Assembly (NCBI GenBank): GCA_913009695.1 | Contig: CAJVWV010000003.1 | Span: forward strand, 1-53,308 | Direction of reading: 5' to 3' | Length of the DNA stretch: 53,308 nt | From: an uncultured bacterium | Lineage (GTDB): Bacteria > Patescibacteriota > Patescibacteriia > Patescibacteriales > SZUA-104 | Shown here: positions 9,729 through 46,146 of the stretch, piece by piece | Layout: each line of letters opens with the position of its first letter | Numbering within the stretch: position 1 is the stretch's first letter | Notes under the pieces: generated by a model | Databases searched by the model: none | Told to the model about the DNA's origin: nothing | What the model saw: only the letters and a program-made list of their open reading frames with translations | Made by a program: the position numbers and the translations under genes

Positions 9729-11282
9729 ATGAATTTATTTGCGATATCAGGTCTTTTAATTATTCTTTCCAGCGCTCTTATGGCTGTGTTTGTCTTTTGG
9801 AAATCTAAAGATAAGGCAACAAGGATTTTGTGGCCGCTTTTATGCATTTGTATAATTTTATGGGGAGTAATAACATATAAGACTTCCACTGTAACTTCTA
9901 TAGATCAGGCGTTGTTTTGGTGGAATTTATTATATATAGGACCAATTTTTGTTCCTGTTATTTTCTATCACTTTATATATTCTTTTCTTAAATTAAGCAA
10001 AAAAATTAATAAATACATTCTTGTTGCTTCATATTTTTTAGCGTTATTTTTTACAATAATTAGTTTAATTTTTCCTAAAGTTTTTTTCGGCAATCTAACT
10101 ATTTTCTTTGATTATATTTATTCGCCGATAATTAATCCAAAAAATATTGTATTTTTCATTTTTTATTTTACTTTTTATTGGGCACTTCTTTCTTATGCTT
10201 TTTGGCAATTAATATTAGCATTTAAAAATTCTACCGGGATATTGAGAAACCAGCTTAAATATTTTCTTCTTGGCTCTGCTGTTGGCTGGGCCGGACCGCA
10301 TGGATTTTTTGTAATGGCAGCAAATATTAATATTTATCCATATTCTAATTTCCTTCTTATTATTTATCCGATTATTTTTGCTTACGCTATATTAAAATAC
10401 CAATTAATGGATATAAGTATTATTATTAAAAAGGCGTTCTTCTATTCTATTGGAATTGCTTTAGCGGCTGGTTTAATAGTCGGCGTAAGCTTTTTAAGCA
10501 GTTGGTTTACTGAAAGAATACATGGTTTTCAGTCATGGGTTGTACCTTTAATAGCTGGCACATCCGCGTTTATAGTGGGTCGTATATTTTGGCACAAATC
10601 AAAGGAAGTAGATAAATTAAAATATGAATTTATAACAGTAGCTGCTCATAAACTAAGAACCCCTCTTACTAAAGTTAAATGGGCGTTAGAAGCATTATCC
10701 GAAGAAGTTCCAGGGGCTGGCAAAAAATTAATTTCCGAAGCCAAAAAAGCAAATGCTCAAACTATTGAATTAACTGATGAGCTATTGACTGTTTCTAAAG
10801 CAGACGCGGATAAAATAAAATATCAATTAAAGCCGGCCGATTTAGAAATGATCGCGCAGGATGTAATAAATGATTTAGAAAATCAGATAAGGACAAAAAA
10901 TATTAAATTAGTATTTAATTTTGAAAAAAATTTACCGCGAGTGAATGTAGATCAATTAAGAATTAGCTCAGTTATCCAGATTTTATTAGAAAACGCCATT
11001 TTATATACTAAAGATGAAATAAAAATTAATATTGATTCGCATAAGGATAGCGTAGTATTACATATTGAAGATAACGGAATAGGCATTAAAAAAGAAGATC
11101 AGCCCTATATATTTTCTAGATTCTATCGTTCTCATGAGGCTTATCTAACCGAAACAGAGGGGACTGGAATCGGACTTTTTCTTGCCAAAAGCATGATTGA
11201 TAAACATGATGGCACAATTGGCGTTAGGTCTGAGGGTAAGGGCAAGGGGAGTATATTCTGGTTTAAACTTCCGGTAGTATAA
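9729..11282 (+). CDS. Membrane histidine kinase, first of three tandem paralogues
   Basis: A sensor kinase of 517 residues. The N-terminal ~215 residues form about seven helices, like the 7TM input region of some bacterial kinases. The shared KYQLMDI motif and two more helices (to about 285) come next. The HisKA domain has AAHKLRTPLT with the phospho-acceptor at His307. The HATPase domain shows the N-box LLENAILYT, G1 IEDNGIGI, F-box FSRFYRS and G2 GTGIGLFLAKS. It should autophosphorylate on sensing a membrane or extracellular cue. No response regulator is encoded nearby. It shares its kinase half with the next two genes but differs in the sensor. Confidence 0.92.
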   Translation: MNLFAISGLLIILSSALMAVFVFWKSKDKATRILWPLLCICIILWGVITYKTSTVTSIDQALFWWNLLYIGPIFVPVIFYHFIYSFLKLSKKINKYILVASYFLALFFTIISLIFPKVFFGNLTIFFDYIYSPIINPKNIVFFIFYFTFYWALLSYAFWQLILAFKNSTGILRNQLKYFLLGSAVGWAGPHGFFVMAANINIYPYSNFLLIIYPIIFAYAILKYQLMDISIIIKKAFFYSIGIALAAGLIVGVSFLSSWFTERIHGFQSWVVPLIAGTSAFIVGRIFWHKSKEVDKLKYEFITVAAHKLRTPLTKVKWALEALSEEVPGAGKKLISEAKKANAQTIELTDELLTVSKADADKIKYQLKPADLEMIAQDVINDLENQIRTKNIKLVFNFEKNLPRVNVDQLRISSVIQILLENAILYTKDEIKINIDSHKDSVVLHIEDNGIGIKKEDQPYIFSRFYRSHEAYLTETEGTGIGLFLAKSMIDKHDGTIGVRSEGKGKGSIFWFKLPVV

Positions 11283-11312
11283 TTTATTTTTAAAATATGA
11301 ATTTTCATTATT

Positions 11313-12893
11313 ATGTTATCTTTAGTTAATTTTTTAGAAAGCGTACATCATTTAAATCATCCTTTGCTTTCAGGTTTGAGCGCTCTAGTGATTTTATTAT
11401 TGGGATTCTTCGTTTTATCAAAAGAAAAGAAATCCGAGTTATTTAGGGTTTTCTTTTTTATGATGATTACTATTAGTTTATGGTTTGCCTGTAATGCTTT
11501 TTCTATGTATTATTTTAATAATTTTGAGAAAGCAATTTTATGGTACAAAATTGGTTATATTGGGCCAATCTTTATGGCTGTTGTCTATTATCATTTTTAT
11601 TTGGCATATTCAAAAAAGAGGAAAATAATTCTATATCTTCTTTATTTCATTGCTTTAATAGAAGCATATTATCTATGGTTTTCTGGGTATGTGGGAATAG
11701 ACGCTTATTTTATAGAAAATGTAGGTATAGTTTATAGGAAAATATCTGAAGGGGCCTATTTTAAAATATTCGGCATGATTAAGTATGTTTTGTTTACGCT
11801 AATTACTGCTATATCTTTTTTGAAATTATATAAAAAAGAAATAGAACCACTCAAAAAACAACAACTAAAATATTTAACAATAGCTTTTTTTACGCTTACT
11901 ATGGGAGCGATAGAGTGGGTTTCTGCGTTTAATATTCCATTACATCTGGCGTGGATATTATCACCAATTTTTGTTGCACTTATAGCCTATGCCATTCTCA
12001 AATACCAACTCATGGATATAAAAGTAGTTCTTAAAAAAGCATTCTTTTATTCAATCGGTATTGCATTAATAAGCGGAGCTATTTTTGGTGTAAGCTTTTT
12101 AAATAGCTGGTTTGCTGATAATTTTTCCGGTTTTAGACCTTGGATGATTCCGTTATTATCAGGTATCGTCGCCTTTATAATCGGTAATCTTTTTTGGAAT
12201 AAATCTCAAGAAGCTGAAAAATTAAAATATGAATTTATAACAGTAGCGGCCCATAAATTAAGAACCCCTTTAACTGAAATAAAATGGGCCGTTGAAGCGT
12301 CAAAAGACACAAAAGACACAAAAGAAAAAGATAAATTGTTTGATAATATCGGGAGCGCTAATAGTCGTCTAATTATTCTAACTGATGAACTTTTATTAGT
12401 TTCCAGAGCAGAGGCCGAGCAAAGTAAATACGATTTAAAACCGGCTGATCTGGAAATGATTGCGCAAGATGTTATTGGTGATTTAGAGGATCAAATAAAG
12501 AAGAAAAATATTAAATTAATGTTTAATTATGAAAAGAATTTGTCGCAAGTAAACGTGGACAAAAAAAGAATTAGCTCTGTGATTCAGATTTTATTAGAAA
12601 ATGCTATTTCATACACTAAAGATGAAATAAAAATTAATATTGATTCATATAAGAATAACGTAATATTTCATATTGAAGATAACGGCATAGGCATCTTAAA
12701 GGAAGATCAGTCTCATATATTTTCAAAATTTTATCGTTCTCATGATGCTTATCTAACTGAAACAGAAGGCACAGGCGTTGGTTTATTTTTAGCTAAGAAG
12801 ATAATTGATAGGCATGATGGGAAAATAGGGTTAAAGTCGGAAGGCAAGGGGCAGGGGAGCGTATTTTGGTTTAGCTTAGAGGCAGTTAAATAA
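11313..12893 (+). CDS. Membrane histidine kinase, second paralogue
   Basis: A sensor kinase of 526 residues with the same plan: a 7TM-type input region, KYQLMDI, two further helices, then HisKA with AAHKLRTPLTE (His314) and a complete HATPase domain (IEDNGIGI, GTGVGLFLAKK). From KKAFF onward it is nearly identical to the third paralogue, including GVSFLNSWFADNF and the block around SYTKDEIKINIDSYK. The sensor halves share little. This mosaic suggests recent duplication or gene conversion of the kinase half with divergence of the input. It begins 30 nt after the first kinase. The ATG at 11297 opens only a short frame, so 11313 is the start. Confidence 0.92.
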   Translation: MLSLVNFLESVHHLNHPLLSGLSALVILLLGFFVLSKEKKSELFRVFFFMMITISLWFACNAFSMYYFNNFEKAILWYKIGYIGPIFMAVVYYHFYLAYSKKRKIILYLLYFIALIEAYYLWFSGYVGIDAYFIENVGIVYRKISEGAYFKIFGMIKYVLFTLITAISFLKLYKKEIEPLKKQQLKYLTIAFFTLTMGAIEWVSAFNIPLHLAWILSPIFVALIAYAILKYQLMDIKVVLKKAFFYSIGIALISGAIFGVSFLNSWFADNFSGFRPWMIPLLSGIVAFIIGNLFWNKSQEAEKLKYEFITVAAHKLRTPLTEIKWAVEASKDTKDTKEKDKLFDNIGSANSRLIILTDELLLVSRAEAEQSKYDLKPADLEMIAQDVIGDLEDQIKKKNIKLMFNYEKNLSQVNVDKKRISSVIQILLENAISYTKDEIKINIDSYKNNVIFHIEDNGIGILKEDQSHIFSKFYRSHDAYLTETEGTGVGLFLAKKIIDRHDGKIGLKSEGKGQGSVFWFSLEAVK

Positions 12894-12908
12894 TATAATT
12901 AAATTAAT

Positions 12909-14462
12909 ATGAATTTTCTTTTATTAAATCATGCGGTAGCCATGATGCTGACATCTGTTGTTGCTTTTGTTGTTGGCGTGTTTGTGCTATTTAGAGGGCG
13001 TGGTAAAAAAATTAATTTAGCATATTCAGCATGGTCTTTAAGCGTTGCTTGGTGGTCTTTTTTTACTGGCCTTGTAATATTAGCAGATTCAGCTGAACAA
13101 GCAATCATTTATACGCGCCTTGTATGGTTTCCTGTTCTTTTAATAGCAGTTTCAACCGCCCATTTTGTAATTTTATTTTTAGAAATAAAAGGAAAGGAAT
13201 TATTTATAAAAATAGGCTATGTTTTTTGCGCGTTTTTTGCTGTTATGAGTTTTACGCCGTATATGGTGTCCAGTGTTCAGGAGATGGCTTATCTAAAATA
13301 TTGGCCCCAACCGGAGCTTCTAGTATATATTCAGTTTTTTATTTTTGTAATATATGTAATCTATCAAATGAATGAATTATTCAAGGCATATAGAGCTTCA
13401 ACGGGTATTCGCCATAATCAAATCGGCTATGTTTTTTGGGCATCTTTACTTGGATATACAGGCGGTTTATCTAATTATTTATTAGTATTTAAAATTTATA
13501 TTCCTATTATCCATCCATTTGCCTCATATCTTCTTATTGTGTATTCATTAGTGGTCGCAATGGCTATTTTAAAATATCAGTTAATGGATATTAGGGTAAT
13601 AATTAAGAAAGCATTCTTTTTTACAGTCGGCATTGCGTTAATAAGCGGAGCTATTTTTGGTGTCAGCTTTTTAAATAGCTGGTTCGCTGATAATTTTCCC
13701 GGCTTTAAACCCTGGATGATTCCGTTATTATCAGGTATGGTCGCTTTTATAATAGGTAATCTTTTTTGGAAAAAAACACAAGAGGCGGATAAACTAAAAT
13801 ATGAGTTTCTTACGGTCGCGGCTCACAAACTAAGAACCCCGTTAACTGAAATTAAGTGGGGCATGGATGCGCTAGAAGAAAAAGAAAAGGACAATGAAAA
13901 AAGAAAATTAATTGGAAGTGTACAAAAAGCAAATGTTCGTTTGATTGAATTGACCGAAGAATTGTTATTGGTCTCCAAGTCCGAAGCTGAACAAAGTAAA
14001 TATGATTTAAAACCGGCTGACTTAGAAATGATTGCGCAGGACGTAATAAACGACCTAGAAGAGCAAATAAAAGCTAAAAATATTAAATTAATGTTTAATT
14101 ATGAAAAGAATTTACCGCGAGTGAACGTAGATAAAATAAGAATTGGCTCTGTGATTCAGATTTTATTAGAAAACGCTATTTCATACACTAAAGATGAAAT
14201 AAAAATTAATATTGATTCGTATAAAAATAACGTAATATTCCATATTGAAGACAACGGTATAGGCATTTTAAAAGAAGACCAGTCTCGTATATTTTCAAAA
14301 TTTTATCGCTCTCATGATGCTTATCTAACTGAAACAGAAGGCACAGGCGTTGGTTTATTTTTAGCTAAAAGAATAATTGATAGGCATGACGGTAAAATAG
14401 GAGTAAGATCCAAGGGCAAGGAAGAGGGAAGTACTTTTTGGTTTAGTCTAAAGGCAACGTAA
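12909..14462 (+). CDS. Membrane histidine kinase, third paralogue
   Basis: A sensor kinase of 517 residues, again with a multi-helix input region (about residues 1-220), KYQLMDI, two helices, HisKA with AAHKLRTPLTE (His306) and HATPase. It starts 15 nt after the second kinase, so the three form one transcription unit. The last ~290 residues match the second paralogue almost residue for residue, while the input region is unrelated in detail (it begins with an Ala- and Val-rich helix). A terminator for the unit lies inside the 3' end of the convergent prmC (14492-14514). Only 2 nt separate the two stop codons. The cognate regulator must be elsewhere. Confidence 0.92.
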   Translation: MNFLLLNHAVAMMLTSVVAFVVGVFVLFRGRGKKINLAYSAWSLSVAWWSFFTGLVILADSAEQAIIYTRLVWFPVLLIAVSTAHFVILFLEIKGKELFIKIGYVFCAFFAVMSFTPYMVSSVQEMAYLKYWPQPELLVYIQFFIFVIYVIYQMNELFKAYRASTGIRHNQIGYVFWASLLGYTGGLSNYLLVFKIYIPIIHPFASYLLIVYSLVVAMAILKYQLMDIRVIIKKAFFFTVGIALISGAIFGVSFLNSWFADNFPGFKPWMIPLLSGMVAFIIGNLFWKKTQEADKLKYEFLTVAAHKLRTPLTEIKWGMDALEEKEKDNEKRKLIGSVQKANVRLIELTEELLLVSKSEAEQSKYDLKPADLEMIAQDVINDLEEQIKAKNIKLMFNYEKNLPRVNVDKIRIGSVIQILLENAISYTKDEIKINIDSYKNNVIFHIEDNGIGILKEDQSRIFSKFYRSHDAYLTETEGTGVGLFLAKRIIDRHDGKIGVRSKGKEEGSTFWFSLKAT

Positions 14463-17796: not shown

Positions 17797-18531
17797 ATGA
17801 AGTTTATTGTAACTATTATTTTATTATTTTTTTTAAGCCTGCCTGTTTTTGCTAATGGACAAGCTGATGCAGACATGGATGGCGTGCCGGATAGCGATGA
17901 AATTAATGTTTATTTTACAGACCCTCAAAATCCGGATACTGACGGCGACGGATATAGTGATTGGGAAGAATTAAATAATGGTTATTCCCCACACAATATA
18001 AAGGCTGTAAAATTAGAAGATAATGATTATGATAATGATGGACTATCTGACAGAATGGAGCTTAATTTTAAAACTAACTTAACAAACCCCGATACTGACG
18101 GCGACGGATATAAAGATGGAGAAGAAATTAATAATGGATATGACCCATTAAATAATAACAGTGCTAAACTTAATAAACATATTGAAGTTAACACTGAAAA
18201 TCAAGAATTATATTATTTTTTAGGAGGAGTAAAAATGGGAACTTTTATTATTTCAAGCGGCATCAACAATTCAACTCCGAAAGAAAATTATTTAATAACC
18301 AACAAACACCCCAGGGCGTGGTCACCTTATGGACTTTGGATGCCTTATTGGCTGGGATTAGGAAACGGAAAAATAGGAATTCATGAGCTTCCAGTCTGGC
18401 CGAACGGGTATAGAGAGGGCGAGGATCATTTAGGAACGCCTGTCTCACACGGCTGTATACGATTAGGAATAAATTCAGCGGAATTTATATATAATTGGGC
18501 GGAGGTTGGAACGCCAGTTAATATATATTAG
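17797..18531 (+). CDS. L,D-transpeptidase with thrombospondin type-3 calcium repeats
   Basis: An exported protein of 244 residues. A signal peptide (about 1-19) is followed by two Asp-rich TSP3-type units (DADMDGVPDSDEI to DTDGDGYSDWEEL near 25-62, and DYDNDGLSDRMEL to DTDGDGYKDGEEI near 74-110), which should bind calcium. A YkuD L,D-transpeptidase domain (about 127-244) comes next. Its active site is SHGCIRLG, with His218 and Cys220. It should form 3-3 peptidoglycan cross-links or attach proteins outside the membrane. The reason it sits between the Rrf2 regulator and the Fe-S scaffold is unclear; 3 nt separate its stop from the TTG that opens the next frame. Confidence 0.88.
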   Translation: MKFIVTIILLFFLSLPVFANGQADADMDGVPDSDEINVYFTDPQNPDTDGDGYSDWEELNNGYSPHNIKAVKLEDNDYDNDGLSDRMELNFKTNLTNPDTDGDGYKDGEEINNGYDPLNNNSAKLNKHIEVNTENQELYYFLGGVKMGTFIISSGINNSTPKENYLITNKHPRAWSPYGLWMPYWLGLGNGKIGIHELPVWPNGYREGEDHLGTPVSHGCIRLGINSAEFIYNWAEVGTPVNIY

Positions 18532-20881: not shown

Positions 20882-21463
20882 TTATTCCCAATATGTATCA
20901 GCAAAAATTAGCATGCTTATGGGCCTTTCCGGAGTTTGCCCTTCATGGCTAATGGGGCGGGAATAGCCGGCTTTTAATTCTAAAGAATTTATATTTATAT
21001 AATAATTCATGGCTTCCAAATTTATTAAATAATTCAATTGCTTGATAAAATTACCGTTAGTGATAATTTGCAGCGGCGTTTTTTTATAGCCATCTTTGGC
21101 GGTGTTTTTGGGGGCGGCTAAATTTATTTTTTGTTCAACACCCTGGCTACTTGCCACTTCTTCCAACTCGGTAATAAATTCCAATACCTTGTCTTTACCA
21201 ATTAAAATTCGGTTTAATTTAAGCAATTGGGGTTCAATTACTTCTAAATCTTTAGTTAGTTTGTTTATGCTTTGGCCTTTTTTATATTTAATTTCTAAAT
21301 CAATTCTTTGCGCTTCTATTTCATTTTTAATATTTTTAATGTCTTTAACAGTAGGAACAATAACTAAAAGAATTAAACCACCGATAGCCAAAGGAAACAA
21401 AACGGAAATAATAATTATTTTTTTCTTTAAACTGATTTTTTTTGAAATATTATTAAAATTCAT
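20882..21463 (-). CDS. pilO: Type IV pilus alignment protein PilO
   Basis: A protein of 193 residues with a short cytoplasmic N-terminus, one membrane helix (about 16-35), a coiled coil (about 38-75) and a compact ferredoxin-like outer domain. This is the PilO plan, which pairs with PilN and links the cytoplasmic motor platform to the pilus. Sequence conservation is weak in this family, so order counts: pilM-pilN-pilO is the standard order. It ends 13 nt before the small bitopic gene. Confidence 0.78.
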   Translation of the reverse strand: MNFNNISKKISLKKKIIIISVLFPLAIGGLILLVIVPTVKDIKNIKNEIEAQRIDLEIKYKKGQSINKLTKDLEVIEPQLLKLNRILIGKDKVLEFITELEEVASSQGVEQKINLAAPKNTAKDGYKKTPLQIITNGNFIKQLNYLINLEAMNYYININSLELKAGYSRPISHEGQTPERPISMLIFADTYWE

Positions 21464-21511: not shown

Positions 21512-22063
21512 TTATTCGTAATTCGTAGGAGTGATATTTTTTAAATTTAATTTCATGCTTAACTCAAAATTTATATTTTCTTTTTGAAGAATATTCTCAA
21601 TTGGCGATTTAATATCCGTGAATATATTTGAATCTTTTAATTTTTGCTTTAATTCAAGCAGGCTGTCCCGCGTATCAGCATGCCCCTTTATTTTTAAAGC
21701 TTGACTTTCTTTTTCTATTTTTATATACGAAAAAGAAATTTCATTTGATGGCATCTGGGCCAACATTTCCAATAAATACGACCATGCGATATATTCATTT
21801 TGAATATTAGTAACTGTATCAATTTGTGAATTAATTTTTCTTACTTTGTCAATATTCCCTCGACTGGAACTTGTTACTAAAGTAGTTTGCGCCACAACGT
21901 CATTAAAATTATTCTGTAGTATTATTTTAGCCACCAATAAAATAATCGTAATAATTATTGCTATAATAATTAAAACATAATTCATTTTCTTCAACAGCGA
22001 ATAAACATGCCTTGATTTAATTTCTTGTTTAAGCTCTTGCGAGACAAGATTTAAAGTTAACAT
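21512..22063 (-). CDS. pilN: Type IV pilus protein PilN
   Basis: A protein of 183 residues. The N-terminal LTLNLVSQELK resembles the PilN peptide (usually INLLP-like) that docks onto PilM. One membrane helix (about 30-50), a coiled-coil stretch and a ferredoxin-like outer domain follow. The stop codon of pilM is 6 nt upstream, the tight coupling usual for this pair. It forms the inner-membrane complex with PilM and PilO. Confidence 0.82.
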   Translation of the reverse strand: MLTLNLVSQELKQEIKSRHVYSLLKKMNYVLIIIAIIITIILLVAKIILQNNFNDVVAQTTLVTSSSRGNIDKVRKINSQIDTVTNIQNEYIAWSYLLEMLAQMPSNEISFSYIKIEKESQALKIKGHADTRDSLLELKQKLKDSNIFTDIKSPIENILQKENINFELSMKLNLKNITPTNYE

Positions 22064-22069
22064 ATTGTG

Positions 22070-23221
22070 TTATAGTTTATCAATAAATATTTCCCTTAGC
22101 GCCAGACCAATAGCCGTAGCGTATGTTATGCTAGTGTCTTGTGTTATTTTGCTTGATTTGGATTTGTTTTTTATTTTAGCTGAAAAATTGGTATTTAAAC
22201 TATGAGTTTCGGAAAAAATTTTTAATATTTCCCGTCTGTCTTCATTTAAATTAATTAAAGCGTCTCCCGGCTCTACTTTAATGGAAACATATTCGCTTAT
22301 TATTTTATCAAGATTTTTAATATTCGCGCCTCCGCCACAAAGTAATATTTTATCAATCTGACCATAATCGGGAAAATGATGATTGTAAAACATAATGGAA
22401 TCGTTAATTTTCGCGACCAATTCTTTAATCATCCCGTATAGCGTATCTTTAATTATTCCTTGAGCCTTACTTTCGTCAAGACCGCATATAATCTTGGCTT
22501 TCTCGGCCTGTTTTATATCAATTTTTAAGGTTTCAGCAATTTTTTTCGTTATTTTATTTCCTGATATCGGCACACTAAAAGAAAAAAGGATTGTATTTTT
22601 TGAATAGACAGTCATATTGGAACGCTTCGCGCCAATATCAATAATGCCATAATTCTTATTTTTATCTCCCTTGAATTTATAATGTTCTTCCTTAAGCAAG
22701 CTGCGACAAAGCGAAATAGGTTCTATTTCTAGGGCCACTATTGATAATTTCGCCTGATCTAGTAAATCAGTATATTGATTAACGATATCTTTCGGAGCGG
22801 CGCCAATTAAAATAAGCTGCTTATTCGGAAAATCTTTTATTAACTGCCAATCAAAATATATTTTATCAATTGCCATAGGGACATGTTTTTCAATCTCATC
22901 TCTAATTGTCTTAAAAGTACTTTCTTGGGTTTTTTTTACTTCAATTAATTTTATAAAAGTTCTGGATTCAGGCAGGCAGGCAACCACTTCTCTTGTTGTC
23001 ACTTTTCCGTATTTTGGCTTATCAATCAATGCGTTAATAGCTTTGATTATTTTTTCTTTATTTTTAATCTCTCCATTTTCAAAAAGACCCTCTGGCAAAT
23101 TTACCTTGTTTAGAGCCTGTATTGCGATTTTATCCCCCTGCTTTTTGAGCTGGACAAGCTTAAGGGATAAATTTGATATATCCAGACCGATGGGATAGTT
23201 TAATTTGTTGCTGAAAAACAT
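22070..23221 (-). CDS. pilM: Type IV pilus assembly ATPase-fold protein PilM
   Basis: A cytoplasmic, actin-like protein (383 residues) that binds the N-terminus of PilN. YPIGLDISNLSLKLVQL is the phosphate-1 region. VACLPESRTFIKLIEV, DIGAKRSNMTVYS and the LLCGGGANIKNLDK loop near 285-300 are typical. It is the first of the pilM-N-O block, downstream of the prepilin genes. The word GGCAGGCAGG inside it (segment ACLPES) matches a local GC-rich repeat but lies in a conserved position. Confidence 0.9.
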   Translation of the reverse strand: MFFSNKLNYPIGLDISNLSLKLVQLKKQGDKIAIQALNKVNLPEGLFENGEIKNKEKIIKAINALIDKPKYGKVTTREVVACLPESRTFIKLIEVKKTQESTFKTIRDEIEKHVPMAIDKIYFDWQLIKDFPNKQLILIGAAPKDIVNQYTDLLDQAKLSIVALEIEPISLCRSLLKEEHYKFKGDKNKNYGIIDIGAKRSNMTVYSKNTILFSFSVPISGNKITKKIAETLKIDIKQAEKAKIICGLDESKAQGIIKDTLYGMIKELVAKINDSIMFYNHHFPDYGQIDKILLCGGGANIKNLDKIISEYVSIKVEPGDALINLNEDRREILKIFSETHSLNTNFSAKIKNKSKSSKITQDTSITYATAIGLALREIFIDKL

Positions 23222-25581: not shown

Positions 25582-28500
25582 TTATTCTACATAAACCGTC
25601 CATTCTTTAGTTTCGTCAGGCAATATTTCCAGTGGCTGTATCGGATCCGTATAAATCATATCTAACGACGTGGAGGCAGCGACTAATTCTATCGTATATC
25701 CGGCATCCCACTCTAAAGACAAATTCGCGTAGCCGCTTGCGTCAGTATATTGGTCGTGGTCAAATTCGTAAATAACAGGAGTTTCACTGATTGTTTTTGT
25801 GCCGTAAACTCTAATTGGGACATAACCGTAACCGCTGGGAGATCCCGGATCGGTGAATTTAGTGGCGTAAATATTGTAATCAGTGTCACGGTTATCCTGC
25901 CATGCCGCGAATGGTTCATCGGCCGTGTTAATCGCCAATACTGAATTAGATTGCGCGCTGACGGTTAAATTTATGTTAATTTTTAGGTCATTCGTCCATT
26001 GGGCATTGCCGTTTAAATCATATTTTTGCGCGTAAATATCTTCATTACCGTCACGGTCGTCTGTCCATAAAACATAAGCGAGAGAAATGGAATTATTAAT
26101 GGCAACAGCAGAATCATATTGATTGTCGGCAAGAGAAGATATGTTGGCTTGTGTTTCCCATTGGCTAATTCCATTTGAATCAAATTTCGCCAACCGAACG
26201 TTTAATACGCCTAAAATATCTTCTGTCCAAGATAAATAAATATTATCCGAACTGTCAACCGTTAAACTTGGCGAGTAGTCGTCAAAAGATGAATTTGAAA
26301 TATTTTTCGGGCTTAACCAAACGTTCGCTTCCGTTAAATCGAATTTTTGCAGATATATTTCTTTATCGGCCGCGCCGTCGTTTACCCAAGCAACCACGAT
26401 ATTATTATTTGAATCAAACGAAATGGCGGGGGAGTGTTCATTGGTTGACGAGCTGGTAATTTGCAAGTCAGATCCCCAAAGCTTGTTTCCTAATATATCC
26501 AAAGCCTGGGCGTAAATATCGGTATTGCCGTTTCTTTCATCCTGCCACACTATGGTTGTGGTGGCCGAATTTTGGGTAATAGCTATTTTAGGATTTGTCT
26601 GATTCGTATTTGTGCTGTCTGAGTTTACTTTTTTTACGCTCCACAATTCACTGCCGCTTGCGTCAAGGCTTACTATATAAATATTTTCATCTCCTATAAC
26701 GGATATTTCGGGATATACTGTGTAATAAAAATCATCTGTTGAACCGGCGTTAGTTAAGCGAAAACAATAATTAGTCTCATTTATATTTGATGTTGCCTGA
26801 ATCGCGTATTCTAGTTCGGTAAATTCGTTTGACGTTAGAGTAATAGCGGACGTCTGGTTGCCCGCGTCTTTTACTTGTCCTGCTTTAAAACTGGTATTTT
26901 CGTCGGTTAAGCCCGAAACGTTTGTTGTCGCTTCGCTATCTGTCAAGTTAGCTGAATCACTTATTTGCCAATGCTGACTTGAGTCATTAGGCAACGCTGT
27001 CCAACTTGAAATACCTGAACAGCTAGACGACATTTCTCCATATTCAATTCTATACTCGGTTGTTCCTGAGTCAATACTGCCCTCGTTTGATATTTCAAAA
27101 CGTAAGCGCGTTATGGAATTAATTTCTACGGTTGTCGGCGTATCTTGACTATCTTTCCATGAGGCTGAAATTTCCGAGCCATCGTCATCGCGCCAACGAT
27201 AATGTATTTGATTTAATTCGGTTGGTTTTAGTAAAATAGTGGAACCACTAATCTCAACTGTCGTATCGGGTAAAGCAGTACCTGCATTTAACGTAATGTC
27301 GGTTGAAGGATCATTAATTTTAATTTCAACAGTTTCGTCTTTACCGGCGCCGCTTAAAACGTCTAAAACAGTATATATGCAAAGCGTTTTAGTGGTTGAA
27401 ATTTCTATATTATCCGTAAATGCCACCGAGCCGTCAGCGCCGTTAAAACTCGCAGCAGAGCCGAACTGCGCGTCAATACCGGCATCATATTGCTCGTCAG
27501 CGCAATTATAAGGCGCGACTATATCCAGATCATAATAAAGTTTAATATTAGACAAGTTGTTTTGCGCGTCAACGGTTCCGTTTTCTGAAATAGTAATACC
27601 GGTGACATTGTGCGTGCCGGTATTATCGGTAATAACAAACGCGCCACCCGTGTATTGGCTGGTACTGAGGATCATTATTGACGCAGTTTGCGTATTAATC
27701 GTGCCTACGGTAGCATCATTCGGAATTTGAACTCGAAATACCGCTAAAGCGCTGTTTCTTTGCTCAGCCCCGCCGGTGCTCAAAGTCAGGTCGGCGCTTT
27801 GTACGGCGGCTGAAGTTATATTAAGAGTGGCTACCGCCAAAGATCCATCATTAATCCACCATCCCCCCCAATCCTGCCATAGCTGATGCGTCCAGTTGTC
27901 GCTTGAACCGGATGCCCAGTTACTTGAACTTGGAGTCGTAAAGTTATTGTCGGCAAACGCGATGGCGGCAACCCCAAATCCAGTAATTTCCGATTGCGCG
28001 GTTGATCCGGTTGAGGCAGTTAGCCCATCACTGCCTGTTTCGTCGTTAGTGGATGTAACATCAATTAAGTTGCTTGTGTCTAGTCCGGATACTTCCATAA
28101 TCATCAAAACACCTCCTTCAATATTTCCACTGTTTGTTAAAGTTACCTGCGATGGTTCGCCGGCTCCGATAATTTTATGCCATATTCCAATATCCAAATA
28201 CCATGAACTATCCGAATAAGCTGATTCCGTGAATGAGCCGGCGGTATTGGTTGGGAGATTAAATGAACTATTATTATTTCTATGGACGGCTATGGCTATA
28301 ATAACGTTTCCTTCCGTCGGCTGATTATCAAAAGTGGCGGTCAGCGTATTGCTCCAGCTTACGATTGAACCTATTTTGGTTTGCACAATTGAACCGGCCG
28401 CTCGGGCATTATTGACTGTTAATTTATCATGGAATAAACTCGCGAAGGCGACGGAGAATTTATTATAAATTTTTTTTACACCGGTTTTTAATTCCTCAAA

Positions 28501-29778
28501 TTTATCCGCAATTCGCAGATTGGCATTTATTCGCGTATTAGCGTAATATGCCGTAATATTTTTAATTATATTAGAAGTTTTATGTTTTATTAAAGAAAAA
28601 ATTGATTTTTTTGATAACAGCGTTTTACTATTAATTATATCTACGGCATATTTTTTCCCAAAGTTATCGGGAACATCATAAGCAATTTGCTTTAAAGTAA
28701 TTGAATCATCCTGCCAAACAACGAATAAATTTCCATTTGCGGCCGCGACGATATCCGGATTGCGTTGAAATGCCGTATTGCTGATTTTGTAATCATTAGC
28801 CCACTGTTTAACGGATGAAGAGTTATATTTTTGCGCGTATATATAAGACGAAGTGGCGGTATTGCTTTGCCATACAAAATACATATTATTAAAACTATCA
28901 AGAGAAAAATTGGCGTTTATTTGATCTCTCGCGCTTTGCGGCAGGTTGACCCTCCAGTTGTCCGGAAGATTATTGGATACTGTGCGAATCTGTAAATTCG
29001 CCAGTTTATCAATAGTAAAACTTTCTTCTGTTTTGTCGCCCTCTGTAACGCTAAGGTGAATTGGGGATTTGCCGGCTGAAAGTAAATATGATTGGTCCGC
29101 GCCATAATATACCGATGGCTCTTCATTGGTTTTTGTCACAGTTATTTCATAGCTCTGAAAAGATTCTAAGGCGGGCAAATATAATATACCGCTCGCATCG
29201 GTTGGATTAGTGACGTCTACCGCCGGGTTTAAAGAGTTATTTACTACGCGAACATTAGCGCCTGCCAATGGTTCAGCGCCGGCATTATTTACTAATATTT
29301 TTAAAAGTCCATAACCCTCGGCTGTTTCTTCGGTGCGGGGAATAATTTTTGAAAAAATTGTAACGTTTCTGTCTCCGAATTTTCCAACCCAGCCAACTTT
29401 TATTGTCGCGATTTTATAATCATTTATAATAGTATCAACCCCGGCTGAACCGTCGTAAGGGTCGTCGTAATACGTGACATAAGTATTTATCGTGAATGTT
29501 CCTTCGCGGCTGATTGTTTCTACCTGCGGTATGTTGCCGCTAGGAATGCCGCCCTGCACACCAACTTCGCTGTAAGGCAAGTTCCTAATTTGCTCCATTT
29601 TTTGATTAGCTATTCCAATAGCTTCAACATAATACTTATTGTCAGCGGTAACGCGCAAAGAAAGAAGTATTAAGCTAAAAATTCCCAAAGCTAAAATTAC
29701 AAGAATTGCGATTGAAATTATTACTTCAATTAATGTGAAGCCGAATTGATTTTTTATTTTAAAAAAAGCATAATTCAT
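25582..29778 (-). CDS. Giant prepilin (1398 residues) with fused surface region, putative pilus-tip adhesin
   Basis: The N-terminus is a type IV prepilin of PilV/GspI kind: FGFTLIEVIISIAILVIL, cleavage after Gly13, Glu at mature position 5, pilin-like domain to about residue 150. A carboxypeptidase-regulatory-like fold follows (about 155-245, LLKILVNNAGAEPLAGANV). Next come propeller-like units of the kind IYAQKY...W...VWQDD, first about 260-365 and again about 1010-1330 (DIYAQALDILGNKLW, DIYAQKYDLNGNAQW). Between them lies a ~630-residue beta-rich region that starts with a basic stretch ending ARAAGS, like the N-terminus of another exported protein. Prepilins are normally 120-250 residues, so this one should display a large domain at the fibre tip. 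It lies 15 nt after pilC. Confidence 0.85.
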   Translation of the reverse strand: MNYAFFKIKNQFGFTLIEVIISIAILVILALGIFSLILLSLRVTADNKYYVEAIGIANQKMEQIRNLPYSEVGVQGGIPSGNIPQVETISREGTFTINTYVTYYDDPYDGSAGVDTIINDYKIATIKVGWVGKFGDRNVTIFSKIIPRTEETAEGYGLLKILVNNAGAEPLAGANVRVVNNSLNPAVDVTNPTDASGILYLPALESFQSYEITVTKTNEEPSVYYGADQSYLLSAGKSPIHLSVTEGDKTEESFTIDKLANLQIRTVSNNLPDNWRVNLPQSARDQINANFSLDSFNNMYFVWQSNTATSSYIYAQKYNSSSVKQWANDYKISNTAFQRNPDIVAAANGNLFVVWQDDSITLKQIAYDVPDNFGKKYAVDIINSKTLLSKKSIFSLIKHKTSNIIKNITAYYANTRINANLRIADKFEELKTGVKKIYNKFSVAFASLFHDKLTVNNARAAGSIVQTKIGSIVSWSNTLTATFDNQPTEGNVIIAIAVHRNNNSSFNLPTNTAGSFTESAYSDSSWYLDIGIWHKIIGAGEPSQVTLTNSGNIEGGVLMIMEVSGLDTSNLIDVTSTNDETGSDGLTASTGSTAQSEITGFGVAAIAFADNNFTTPSSSNWASGSSDNWTHQLWQDWGGWWINDGSLAVATLNITSAAVQSADLTLSTGGAEQRNSALAVFRVQIPNDATVGTINTQTASIMILSTSQYTGGAFVITDNTGTHNVTGITISENGTVDAQNNLSNIKLYYDLDIVAPYNCADEQYDAGIDAQFGSAASFNGADGSVAFTDNIEISTTKTLCIYTVLDVLSGAGKDETVEIKINDPSTDITLNAGTALPDTTVEISGSTILLKPTELNQIHYRWRDDDGSEISASWKDSQDTPTTVEINSITRLRFEISNEGSIDSGTTEYRIEYGEMSSSCSGISSWTALPNDSSQHWQISDSANLTDSEATTNVSGLTDENTSFKAGQVKDAGNQTSAITLTSNEFTELEYAIQATSNINETNYCFRLTNAGSTDDFYYTVYPEISVIGDENIYIVSLDASGSELWSVKKVNSDSTNTNQTNPKIAITQNSATTTIVWQDERNGNTDIYAQALDILGNKLWGSDLQITSSSTNEHSPAISFDSNNNIVVAWVNDGAADKEIYLQKFDLTEANVWLSPKNISNSSFDDYSPSLTVDSSDNIYLSWTEDILGVLNVRLAKFDSNGISQWETQANISSLADNQYDSAVAINNSISLAYVLWTDDRDGNEDIYAQKYDLNGNAQWTNDLKININLTVSAQSNSVLAINTADEPFAAWQDNRDTDYNIYATKFTDPGSPSGYGYVPIRVYGTKTISETPVIYEFDHDQYTDASGYANLSLEWDAGYTIELVAASTSLDMIYTDPIQPLEILPDETKEWTVYVE

Positions 29779-29793
29779 AACTTATATAAATAA

Positions 29794-30942
29794 TTATATC
29801 GCGCTTGTTAAACTATACATAGGCATAATAATAGCAACAGCCATAGCGCCGACGCCTATGCCCAAAATCAAAATTAATATAGGCTCAATTATAGACGGCA
29901 AATTATTCATAATCTGATCAACTTCATCCTCGTAAAAATCAGCCAATTCTTCAAGAATATTATCTATTTGTCCCGTTTGCTCGCCGACTAAAATCATCTG
30001 CACTACTACCGGAGGAAAAAGTTTTGGATAATTTTTTATAACTTCATTTATCTGTCCGCCTTTCTTTATTTTTTCGCTCATCTCCTTAAGAGCGTATCGA
30101 TAATGAAGATTTCCCAAAACATCAGCTGTTATCTGGAAAGTTTTAATAATCATAATGTCTGTTTTTAATAAAGAACTTACGGTACGCGCGAAACGGGCTA
30201 TATTTATTTTTTTTACAATAGGGGCAACAACCGGCATCTTTAAAATCAATGACTGAAAAAAATACTTACCCTTGGGATTGCGCAATATTTGTATAAAGCC
30301 CAAAATAAAAACCGTTAAACCGACTACAACAAGCAGACCATTATTTATAATACCGCTGCTAATAGAGATTAAAATTTTAGTTGGCAATGGAAGTTCCGCT
30401 TCAAAACTTGATAACATATCCATAATCTTCGGAATCACAACTATCATCATAAAACCCCCGATTCCCATCATTGCAAAAATTATTACTACCGGATAAGTCA
30501 ACGCGCCCCGAACCTTAGAAATAAGCTGATATTGCTTTTTCATTTGAATAAATAATTGCGCCAACACCTCCTCAAGTTTTCCGGAAATTTCACCGGATTC
30601 AACCATATTAATAAATAACTCGCCGAATATTTTTTTATGGGGTTTTAAGCTATCCGTCAAACTAACGCCTCCGGTAACATCATCGGCAATCTTTTTTAAA
30701 ACTTTTTGCATTAATTTATTGTCTGACTGCTCCGACAAGGTTTTTAAAGCGCCGGACATCGGCAAGCCGGCCTTTAACATGATCCCCAAATGCTGCACAA
30801 AAATTAATTTTTCTTTTAACGGAATACGAGAAAATCGTAATAAAAAATTATTAATTTTATCCATTGTTGACCCTAATTCCTCGTCCTTTTTATCTTCTTG
30901 GTCTTTTTCTCCCACGTTTTTTTGTTGTAAATTAACTGGCAT
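29794..30942 (-). CDS. pilC: Type IV pilus platform protein PilC
   Basis: A GspF-family inner-membrane platform protein on which the PilB motor turns. Two T2SSF repeats are seen: FVQHLGIMLKAGLPMSGALKTL in the first and FARTVSSLLKTDIMIIKTF in the second, each followed by GE-type helices (MVESGEISGKLEEVL, LVGEQTGQIDNILEEL). Membrane helices lie near 150-175, 200-220 and 355-378. I use ATG 30942 (382 residues); the longer frame opens at TTG 30987 within a CCGCC palindrome. It is about 155 nt downstream of pilB and 15 nt ahead of the giant prepilin. Confidence 0.92.
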   Translation of the reverse strand: MPVNLQQKNVGEKDQEDKKDEELGSTMDKINNFLLRFSRIPLKEKLIFVQHLGIMLKAGLPMSGALKTLSEQSDNKLMQKVLKKIADDVTGGVSLTDSLKPHKKIFGELFINMVESGEISGKLEEVLAQLFIQMKKQYQLISKVRGALTYPVVIIFAMMGIGGFMMIVVIPKIMDMLSSFEAELPLPTKILISISSGIINNGLLVVVGLTVFILGFIQILRNPKGKYFFQSLILKMPVVAPIVKKINIARFARTVSSLLKTDIMIIKTFQITADVLGNLHYRYALKEMSEKIKKGGQINEVIKNYPKLFPPVVVQMILVGEQTGQIDNILEELADFYEDEVDQIMNNLPSIIEPILILILGIGVGAMAVAIIMPMYSLTSAI

Positions 30943-30977
30943 AGTTTGAAAATTTTTAATTATTAATTTTGTAATTT

Positions 30978-31010
30978 TTTCCGCCAAGGGCGGATTCGCC
31001 TCAGGCGGAA
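30978..31010. repeat. TTTTCCGCC/GGCGGAAAA hairpin
   Basis: TTTTCCGCC and GGCGGAAAA flank a spacer with its own GGCGGATTCGCC. It lies in the pilB-pilC gap. AT-rich simple repeats of the ATTAAAAATTATAAA kind continue to 31097. Confidence 0.55.
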
Positions 31011-31097: not shown

Positions 31098-32843
31098 TTA
31101 TTCTTTGGTTACTCTCATTACTTCTTCAATGGTAGTGATGCCGCTTTTCGCCTTGATAAAACCATCTTCTACTATTGAAAGCATGCCTTGCTTTTCTACT
31201 AATTTACTTACTTCTCTTATTGGCGCGTTTCTTAAAATAAGATCAGATACTTCGTCGTTAACTTCCAGCGTTTCGTAAATTCCCATTCTACCTTTATATC
31301 CGGAATTATTGCATTTTTTACATCCTTTGCCGCGATAAAAAAGCAAAGATTCCAGCCCCTTTTTAGCGTCAAAAATTATTTTAAGCCTTTCCAATTTTTC
31401 TAAAATACGGGGAATATCCATTTGTTTACTCAACTCTTTTATTACCTGTTTATCCAAGTTAAAACTTTGAATACAATTGGTGCAAATTTTCCTTACCAGC
31501 CTTTGGGCAATTATTACGTTAGTGGTAGACGCGACTAAAAACGCCGGGATATCCATCTGTGTAAGGCGAGGCAATGTTGTAACAGCATCGTTGGTATGCA
31601 GGGTAGAAAGTAAAAGATGTCCAGTCATGGCGGCATGAACTGCTATTTCAGCAGTTTCATGGTCGCGTATTTCTCCGACCATTATAATATCAGGATCCTG
31701 CCTAAGAAGAGCTCGAAGGCCAAGAGCAAAGGTAAAGCTAATTTTAGCGTTAACCTGAGTTTGATTTACATGTGGCATTCTATATTCAATCGGATCTTCA
31801 ACGGTAGAAATATTTACTTTAGGGGTATTTAATATATTTAAAATAGTATAAAGAGTTGTTGTTTTACCTGAGCCGGTCGGACCCGTAACTAAAATCATTC
31901 CATGTGGCTTTGATATGTTTCTTTTAATTATCTCTAAAACGCTTGGTTGAAATCCTAGTTGTTCTAGCGACAGAATTTGCGCTTTTTCATTCAAAAGGCG
32001 CATAACTATTTTTTCGCCGTCAAAGGTTGGCAATATGGAGACTCTAAACGCGACTTTATATTCATCAGTTTGAATTTTAAAACGGCCGTCCTGCGGAAGA
32101 CGATGCTCATCAACTTTTAAATTAGATAAAATTTTAATACGAGCTATAATTCCGGATTGCACGTTTTTCGGCAACGTCATGACGTTTCTCAATATACCGT
32201 CAATACGATAACGAACGTTAATACTTTTTTCTTCCGGTTCTATATGTATATCACTGGCCTCCTCAAAAACCGCGTACTCAAGCAAAGTATTAACAATTCT
32301 AACAACCGGCAAGTCTTCAGCTAATTTTTTTAATCCTTGCTCATCCGAAGGGATGCCTTCTTTGTCTTTTTCTCCTTCTTTTCCTTTAGTTAAATAGTCA
32401 AACTCTGACTTAAGGGTTTTATGATATTGTTTTATGCCCTCTTTAATACTGTCTGGAGTAGTTAAAAATATTTTTTGGTCAAGCCCTGTTTTTTTCTTAA
32501 GAAATTCAAATATTTCCAAATCTCCGGGGTCAAGCGCGGCAATTTGCATTTCTTTATTATCAGCATCAAAAGCTATAATATTATGCGCCATTGCAATCGG
32601 CTCCGGCACGCTCAATAAAATATCTTTCCTTATTGTTTTTTCTTTTAAATTTATAAAGGGAATATTAAAATACTTTGCCGCCTCCTCATATAAAGTCTGC
32701 TGAGTTATGATTTTTTTTTCTATCAGATAGCTTTCTATATTTTTCTTGTCCTTTTCCGCCTCCTTATTCATTTCTTCAAAATTTTCAGCTGACAAGATAT
32801 TTGATTTATTTAATATATTTTTAATTTGTTCCTTTGTAAACAT
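31098..32843 (-). CDS. pilB: Type IV pilus extension ATPase PilB
   Basis: A hexameric motor ATPase of the GspE family, 581 residues. The MshEN-type N-terminal domain is about 1-150. The catalytic part has the Walker A GPTGSGKTTTLYT (near 318-330), the Asp box EDPIEYR, Walker B DPDIIMVGEIRD and the His box TGHLLLSTLHTND. The zinc site uses CTNC (about 452-455) and CKKC (about 508-511). It drives pilus extension; no PilT retraction ATPase is encoded here. It opens the operon and is preceded only 5 nt upstream by TATAAT, so its mRNA may be leaderless. Confidence 0.95.
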   Translation of the reverse strand: MFTKEQIKNILNKSNILSAENFEEMNKEAEKDKKNIESYLIEKKIITQQTLYEEAAKYFNIPFINLKEKTIRKDILLSVPEPIAMAHNIIAFDADNKEMQIAALDPGDLEIFEFLKKKTGLDQKIFLTTPDSIKEGIKQYHKTLKSEFDYLTKGKEGEKDKEGIPSDEQGLKKLAEDLPVVRIVNTLLEYAVFEEASDIHIEPEEKSINVRYRIDGILRNVMTLPKNVQSGIIARIKILSNLKVDEHRLPQDGRFKIQTDEYKVAFRVSILPTFDGEKIVMRLLNEKAQILSLEQLGFQPSVLEIIKRNISKPHGMILVTGPTGSGKTTTLYTILNILNTPKVNISTVEDPIEYRMPHVNQTQVNAKISFTFALGLRALLRQDPDIIMVGEIRDHETAEIAVHAAMTGHLLLSTLHTNDAVTTLPRLTQMDIPAFLVASTTNVIIAQRLVRKICTNCIQSFNLDKQVIKELSKQMDIPRILEKLERLKIIFDAKKGLESLLFYRGKGCKKCNNSGYKGRMGIYETLEVNDEVSDLILRNAPIREVSKLVEKQGMLSIVEDGFIKAKSGITTIEEVMRVTKE

Positions 32844-45189: not shown

Positions 45190-46146
45190 TTATTTTTTTA
45201 CAGTTTTTCTTTTTCTGGTTCGGTTTTTAAGATACCGTTCAACAGCTTCTTTTGAAGTCAACCAATCTCTGCCTTCCTTGTGTGCCTCAAGCTTTCCTTG
45301 TCTTGCAAGTAGATTTAGATATTTTGCAGAGAATGAAGTGTTTTTAGATATTTCCGTTAAAGTTAAAAATTTTTCTTGATTTCTTGTTGTTGGTGTTAAA
45401 ATTTTTAGATAAATATCAAGAGAGCGTTCTACTGACTGAGCGATAAATTTTACTAATTGTTCATATTTCCCGCTATCAGCTTCACTTAGTACGTCATAAT
45501 ATTTTTTGCGGTCATTTTTTAGAATAATAACCAGTGGGTAGCCGTTTTGCATGAGTAGTAAATTCATGGCAAGTCGCGAGGTTCTTCCATTACCGTCAAA
45601 AAATGGGTGGATATGCACAAGTTTATGGTGCAGTAAGGCGGATAACTCAACGACGTGCATTTTATTTTTTTGTGAATTCAGCCATTTAATTAAATCTTGC
45701 ATTTTTTGCGGTACTTGCAATGCATCGGGCGGTGTGTGCTTGGCTCCGCCGATAATTACATTTGCATTTCTATATTTTCCAGCCCACTCTTTATCAATTT
45801 CTTGAATAATAATTTGATGCAGATGCCGTATGAGTATTTCAGAGAAAGTGTGTCTTTTATCTTTAGCTACCAGGTCATATAAATATTCTAGAGCAGCGTG
45901 ATGATCTTTAGCTTCTAAATGGTCTTTGAGCGGTTTTCCTTTTACGGTCATGCCCTCGTTGATAACCAGAAAGGTTTCTTTTAAGGTTAAAGAGTTACCC
46001 TCAATCGCATTTGAATTGTAGGTCATTTCTATTTGGAATTTTTCTCGAAGTTTTTGCACGGCTGATTTTGGCAAGGGGCGGAGTTTATTGAGTTTGGTCA
46101 ATTTTTCTTCCAAGCGTTTTTTTATAATTGATGATAGATAATTCAT
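45190..46146 (-). CDS. Fic-domain protein with C-terminal helix-turn-helix
   Basis: A protein of 318 residues. The Fic motif HPFFDGNGRTSRL (about 180-192) has the catalytic His and the nucleotide-binding loop needed for AMP transfer to a target protein. An inhibitory helix SNAIEG (residues 45-50) lies N-terminal, making it a class II Fic. The C-terminal ~55 residues (LTLTEISKNTSFSAKYLNLLARQGKL, ending in a very basic tail) look like a DNA-binding helix-turn-helix. Its promoter holds a perfect inverted repeat (46154-46196), so autoregulation is plausible. The target protein is unknown. No antitoxin is encoded next to it. It belongs to the accessory island. Confidence 0.9.
   Translation of the reverse strand: MNYLSSIIKKRLEEKLTKLNKLRPLPKSAVQKLREKFQIEMTYNSNAIEGNSLTLKETFLVINEGMTVKGKPLKDHLEAKDHHAALEYLYDLVAKDKRHTFSEILIRHLHQIIIQEIDKEWAGKYRNANVIIGGAKHTPPDALQVPQKMQDLIKWLNSQKNKMHVVELSALLHHKLVHIHPFFDGNGRTSRLAMNLLLMQNGYPLVIILKNDRKKYYDVLSEADSGKYEQLVKFIAQSVERSLDIYLKILTPTTRNQEKFLTLTEISKNTSFSAKYLNLLARQGKLEAHKEGRDWLTSKEAVERYLKNRTRKRKTVKK

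Follow-up and report, generated by a model that had tools for sequence, protein, structure and literature searches.

A large modular prepilin with an interrupted beta-propeller in the pilus operon of a Falkowbacteria-like bacterium

A long prepilin gene in a pilus operon

Why does a pilus operon in a small bacterial genome hold a prepilin gene encoding 1398 residues, and what does so long a product carry beyond the pilin itself? The locus lies in a window of 53,308 nucleotides (the whole stretch of DNA analysed; contig CAJVWV010000003.1 of assembly GCA_913009695.1) from a genome of ~0.94 Mb in 43 contigs that is ~80% complete. Its nearest named relatives are Candidatus Falkowbacteria, in keeping with a small-genome Patescibacterium, and more distant relatives include Komeilibacteria, Moranbacteria and Kaiserbacteria. 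The frame is on the minus strand, has no internal stops (Table 1) and begins with the class III leader MNYAFFKIKNQFG^FTLIE, which PF07963 recognizes above cut-off (3.5e-7; 30 bits versus 21.2), as it also matches 16 of 16 homologues. A prepilin fused to a huge exported region had been predicted, and the leader and uninterrupted frame bear this out. The other nine of the ten N_methyl matches genome-wide are frames of 79–219 residues. The protein's length is indeed several times that of any ordinary pilin, although large modular pilins have already been described: PMC8179133 mentions pilins with PF13620 and an 860-residue modular pilin from Falkowbacteria with 12 copies of IPR013211.

The predicted pilus operon is present in the order PilB, PilC, 1398-residue prepilin, second prepilin, PilX/GspK-like protein, PilM, PilN and PilO, with 15 nt between the pilC stop and the prepilin gene downstream. 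The succession of prepilin, PilW/GspJ-like and PilX/GspK-like genes is conserved; the GspJ match is weak and the PilX/GspK-like protein has no family match in Pfam or NCBIfam. A PilT-family ATPase, over cut-off, is encoded elsewhere in the same genome. The pilin fold was read from an AlphaFold2 model of a short homologue of 747 residues (L058), which has a helix at residues 14–63 and strands at 84–146; PilV and GspI HMMs score below cut-off on the window protein (TIGR02523, 24.5 bits versus 52.2; TIGR01707, 15 bits versus 44.35).

Other loci in the window include three histidine kinases in tandem (9729–14462, plus strand; HisKA_7TM, HisKA, HATPase), whose membrane sensor halves differ strongly while their kinase halves are almost the same, as though gene conversion had kept the kinase part uniform. 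Past the pilus operon's 3′ end, on the opposite strand, lies a gene for an L,D-transpeptidase domain that carries calcium repeats of the TSP3 type (17797–18531, plus strand), and a Fic/DOC-family protein with a helix-turn-helix is encoded at 45190–46146 (minus strand).

Table 1. Features of the prepilin gene and its operon (window coordinates; CPD, carboxypeptidase-regulatory-like domain)
Feature	Residues	Coordinates	Strand	Basis or remark
Modular minor prepilin, whole gene	1398 aa	25582..29778	-	
Class III prepilin leader	1-13, cleavage between G13 and F14	29740..29778	-	PF07963
Pilin domain, long helix and beta-sheet	1-152	29323..29778	-	TIGR02523/TIGR02532; fold from L058 model
CPD1, beta-sandwich	153-262	28993..29322	-	PF13620; L058 model
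Blade 1 of the propeller, plus the first blade-2 strand	263-361	28696..28992	-	
Insertion in blade-2 hairpin	362-1028 (~667 aa)	26695..28695	-	absent from short homologues
Fast-evolving basic linker	363-460	28399..28692	-	ends ARA (458-460)
Domain A (type A1)	462-690	27709..28395	-	type A2 instead in three relatives
Domain B	691-856	27211..27708	-	common to large secreted proteins
Domain C	857-1028	26695..27210	-	common to large secreted proteins
Remainder of blade 2 and blades 3-7	1029-1305	25864..26694	-	
CPD2, C-terminal beta-sandwich	1306-1398	25585..25863	-	models; alignment
PilB extension ATPase		31098..32843	-	PF00437 4e-132, MshEN
PilC platform protein		29794..30987	-	PF00482, sequence
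Second minor prepilin, PilW/GspJ-like	196 aa	24872..25462	-	PF07963; weak TIGR01711 6.5e-4
PilX/GspK-like operon protein, hydrophobic N-terminus	483 aa	23407..24858	-	position, conservation
PilM		22070..23221	-	TIGR01175 over cut-off, PF11104
PilN-like		21512..22063	-	PF05137 1.1e-3 (below cut-off) and position
PilO-like		20882..21463	-	PF04350 8e-8

The propeller and its insertion

Beyond the pilin, the domain order is CPD1, a 7-bladed beta-propeller (2+5 blades) and CPD2; the PF13620-like CPD1, where PF13620 is matched in 16 of 16 homologues, and the propeller are folds that are not specific to pili. Two blocks of propeller-like repeats split by an insertion had been predicted: the 2+5 arrangement is real, but the insertion measures ~667 residues instead of ~630. 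The blade repeat xxVWxD...DIYAQK occurs in 2+5 copies, seven in total, and matches the NCBIfam beta-propeller repeat TIGR04275 (1.7e-7), with a score of 30.9 that stays under the cut-off of 85. The model of L058, folded using 16 aligned sequences (mean pLDDT 84, pTM 0.67), comprises pilin helix and sheet (14–146), a beta-sandwich that corresponds to PF13620 (157–265), seven blades with three main strands each (283–654) and a C-terminal sandwich (668–746). The window protein, modelled over residues 263–1398, has its propeller blocks mostly at pLDDT 73–94, so the repeats are predicted to be ordered in both proteins, and the first strand of its blade 2 precedes the insertion while the remaining strands follow it. 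Repeats and models together indicate that the repeats form a 7-bladed propeller. Foldseek matches for the propeller are propellers from glycoside hydrolases, lyases and sialidases (5muk with a target TM of 0.69), many of which act on or bind glycans, and one search adds the CV39L lectin.

The insertion interrupts one blade of a single propeller and is not a spacer between two propellers; the two-propeller reading was dropped because blade count and short homologues give one interrupted 7-bladed ring. In all nine long forms, long/short alignment places the insert in the same blade-2 hairpin, between ...VWQDDS and GDENIY. The insert is beta-rich, as predicted, and modular (linker, A, B and C), and has no counterpart in most members of the order.

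The original prediction also had the insertion begin at a boundary resembling that of a signal peptide, and the linker offers support for this. Across the nine long forms, linkers have 65–98 residues and a pI of 9.6–10.9, share 8–25% identity between lineages, and all close with an AxA motif that directly precedes the opening strand of domain A (ARA in three, ANA in two, and AQA, AVA, AKA and AAA once each), with a variable position -2. In the window protein the linker ends in ARA, followed by AG, and the small residues that signal peptidase I takes at -3/-1 are present at residue 460. In shuffled linkers AxA falls within the last ten positions with p = 0.06–0.12 per sequence; taking one sequence per lineage gives ~4e-7, a figure that ignores relatedness and serves as a guide rather than a P value. 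The motif resembles the signal-peptide ends of secreted relatives, such as ...KIKIARA^A (in genome G073), ...VIKKAQA^A and ...KTPEAMA^A. Over its last 50 residues, though, the linker has no hydrophobic core: its best 12-residue mean hydropathy is 0.4–1.5, compared with 2.4–3.4 in the relatives' real signal peptides. An internal signal peptide that still functions as such is unlikely because this core is absent.

Large proteins in which domains B and C turn up again are encoded by relatives, in frames of 968–9052 residues (1–9 kaa), and wherever the N-terminus of such a protein was inspected it held a signal peptide; the G073 protein has a signal peptide, another domain and then B and C. Giant frames of 5900–9052 residues in relatives (on G039:C5, G014:C2, G051:C13 and G074:C19) contain domain C and in some cases also B. 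Because B and C are common to secreted proteins and the linker AxA is signal-peptide-like, the insert probably descends from a secreted protein that has lost its membrane-spanning part. Retention of AxA in an otherwise changing linker may reflect a structural constraint where the domain begins, or the site may indeed be cleaved. A working processing site at residue 460 is a rather improbable version of the latter, in which the protein would be nicked outside the membrane, the propeller would be built from two chains and the A-B-C end would swing or shed on binding. If AxA is cut, linker and domain A would be a swappable cassette cleaved at a former signal-peptide boundary.

In the model of the window protein, confidence is poor for domain A and the linker (pLDDT ~30–70), and domains A, B and C have no Pfam match; searches of PDB sequences with an A1 profile and a B+C profile gave no useful matches. 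Domain A switches between two unlike types in close relatives. In the comparisons made, identity is 49–81% within a type and 16–20% between types A1 and A2, which hhalign aligns at a probability of 8% (E 0.004 over 100 columns). The genomes G038 (A1) and G051 (A2) are sisters in pilin, blade and W+X trees (W+X being the two neighbouring minor-pilin genes), and their proteins share 19% identity in linker plus domain A versus 45–63% in all other folded domains. Among 111 genomes of the order and a sample of 381 genomes of the class, A1 was not found outside this pilin gene, and A2 has a single weak match elsewhere, in a secreted protein of 599 residues.

Homologues, selection and exchange

Long homologues occur at the same operon place in eight other Falkowbacteria-like genomes, with 1354–1413 residues when counted from where the prepilin starts (a number of the open frames extend further upstream), and short homologues of 645–754 residues occupy it in at least nine further genomes, so that the slot is filled by a long or short form in at least 18 genomes. 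The gene is present in 23 of the 111 genomes of the whole order, some of them incomplete; it is not required for the lifestyle generally because most members of the order lack it. Pilin and CPD1 are kept in Komeilibacteria, Moranbacteria and Kaiserbacteria, and the middle part differs in the last two. In loci L067–L082 (Moranbacteria, Kaiserbacteria and other relatives), pilin and CPD1 accompany other middle parts of 200–350 residues; heads therefore differ between phyla. A 940-residue family member (L083 6889–9711, CSMAG_888) has a propeller and ~200 extra residues in a loop of the pilin domain (DPFDG...DYK), which look LamG/concanavalin-like by eye and mark a second insertion site in this pilin family.

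Comparison of the three closest genomes points to purifying selection on all folded domains: no estimable dN/dS value exceeds ~0.14 (dS of CPD1 is saturated in two of three comparisons). The linker has a dN 3–5 times higher. In a tree of the pilin gene without its insert, based on all non-insert columns, long forms make one clade (91/88); smaller partitions do not resolve the position of G013 or G005. The W+X tree is similar, though not identical, to the pilin tree and mildly rejects the long-form clade (p-AU 0.014). The PilB+PilC tree differs from the pilin, W and X trees and rejects a grouping of all long forms (p-AU 7e-8). The putative tip genes have moved at least partly separately from motor genes, a wording kept to "at least partly" because PilB alone or PilC alone does not reject every conflicting pair (p 0.06–0.14); individual transfers are not mapped, and the trees give no exact date for the insertion.

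A candidate adhesive head and its meaning

We consider it likely that the gene encodes a modular minor pilin that presents an adhesin at the pilus tip, with an outer part that probably serves as a head to grapple other cells; tip position, ligand binding and host attachment are suggested by modular-pilin precedents (PMC8179133, PMC9934059, PMC12206443). A PilV-class minor pilin would bring an adhesive head of its own. Once the leader is removed, the pilin helix would join the PilW- and PilX-like products in a complex at the tip of a retractile type IV pilus, with CPD1 as a stalk that holds out the 7-bladed propeller and CPD2 as its cap. One subset of lineages would have captured part of a secreted protein (signal-peptide end plus A-B-C) in blade 2, at its outer hairpin, turning the propeller into a platform for a second head with domain A as its variable, exchangeable contact surface. 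The pilus would extend, the head would bind a surface glycan or protein of another cell, and retraction would draw the cells together.

Known systems share parts of this design. PilB (with a vWA module) and PilC (with a lectin module) of S. sanguinis are modular tip adhesins known from experiment (PMC8179133, PMC9934059) and likewise are minor pilins of a pil operon that have a class III leader, a small pilin module and a bulky adhesive module; by comparison, the window protein has 1398 residues, a propeller between two CPDs and a three-domain head nested in a blade. PilX2 of the Patescibacterium TM7x (Saccharibacteria) is also a patescibacterial minor pilin with a 7-bladed propeller and is needed for full host binding, which is halved by pilX2 deletion (PMC12206443); compared by description, it differs in its RCC1-type propeller, lack of a predicted PilD leader, other gene position and no reported insert. 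PilY1 has a 7-bladed propeller that minor pilins present at the pilus tip (PMC7541494), but PilY1/PilC tip adhesins are separate non-pilin proteins with PF05567, whereas the propeller here is fused to a pilin with a prepilin leader at its start.

The PilY1 likeness raises the possibility that the head is mainly a priming or stabilizing cap that starts pilus assembly, as in Myxococcus, with adhesion secondary. Tip minor pilins with the PilY1 propeller do prime assembly (PMC7541494), and the gene adjoins PilW/X-like genes with which it shares a common history. Yet such a cap leaves unexplained the additional A-B-C head and two unlike A types in sister lineages, and PF05567 was not found in the window protein (E 1) or in 16 homologues (E 0.01), which makes this unlikely. 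It is very unlikely that the head is instead an enzyme, a glycan lyase or sialidase-like propeller that acts at the pilus tip on host or matrix polysaccharide: although its nearest folds are glycoside hydrolase and lyase propellers and two of 16 homologues have BNR_4 and GH43 Pfam matches, identity in the Foldseek alignments is just 8–18% and propellers of this type are also common binding folds. Less probable again is a pilus for DNA uptake with a DNA-binding basic linker, for which one can cite the strongly basic character of all nine linkers and the use of type IV pili for transformation in many bacteria, since short homologues in the same operon have no linker and linker sequence is not conserved. 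An assembly join or gene-fusion artefact, which the unusual length might suggest and which the original prediction had envisaged, can be dismissed because eight other genomes have the same long gene in the same place at 40–77% identity with dN/dS near 0.1, and long and short homologues share that place.

The modular pilin class and a propeller on a patescibacterial pilin are already known. As far as the literature was surveyed, a head that appears nested in a blade and a putative signal-peptide-like scar with a conserved AxA are new, as are two exchangeable domain A types and an operon position conserved across several Falkowbacteria families. The adhesive-head reading would capture a step in the growth of a pilus adhesin, in which a secreted-looking piece, signal-peptide end included, settled inside a single blade with the reading frame intact, and parts kept passing between species after capture. 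For the question of how most Patescibacteria recognize and hold other cells, Falkowbacteria offer a defined candidate head that can be tested, and its natural variants differ in whether they have the insert and in which of two domain A versions they carry.
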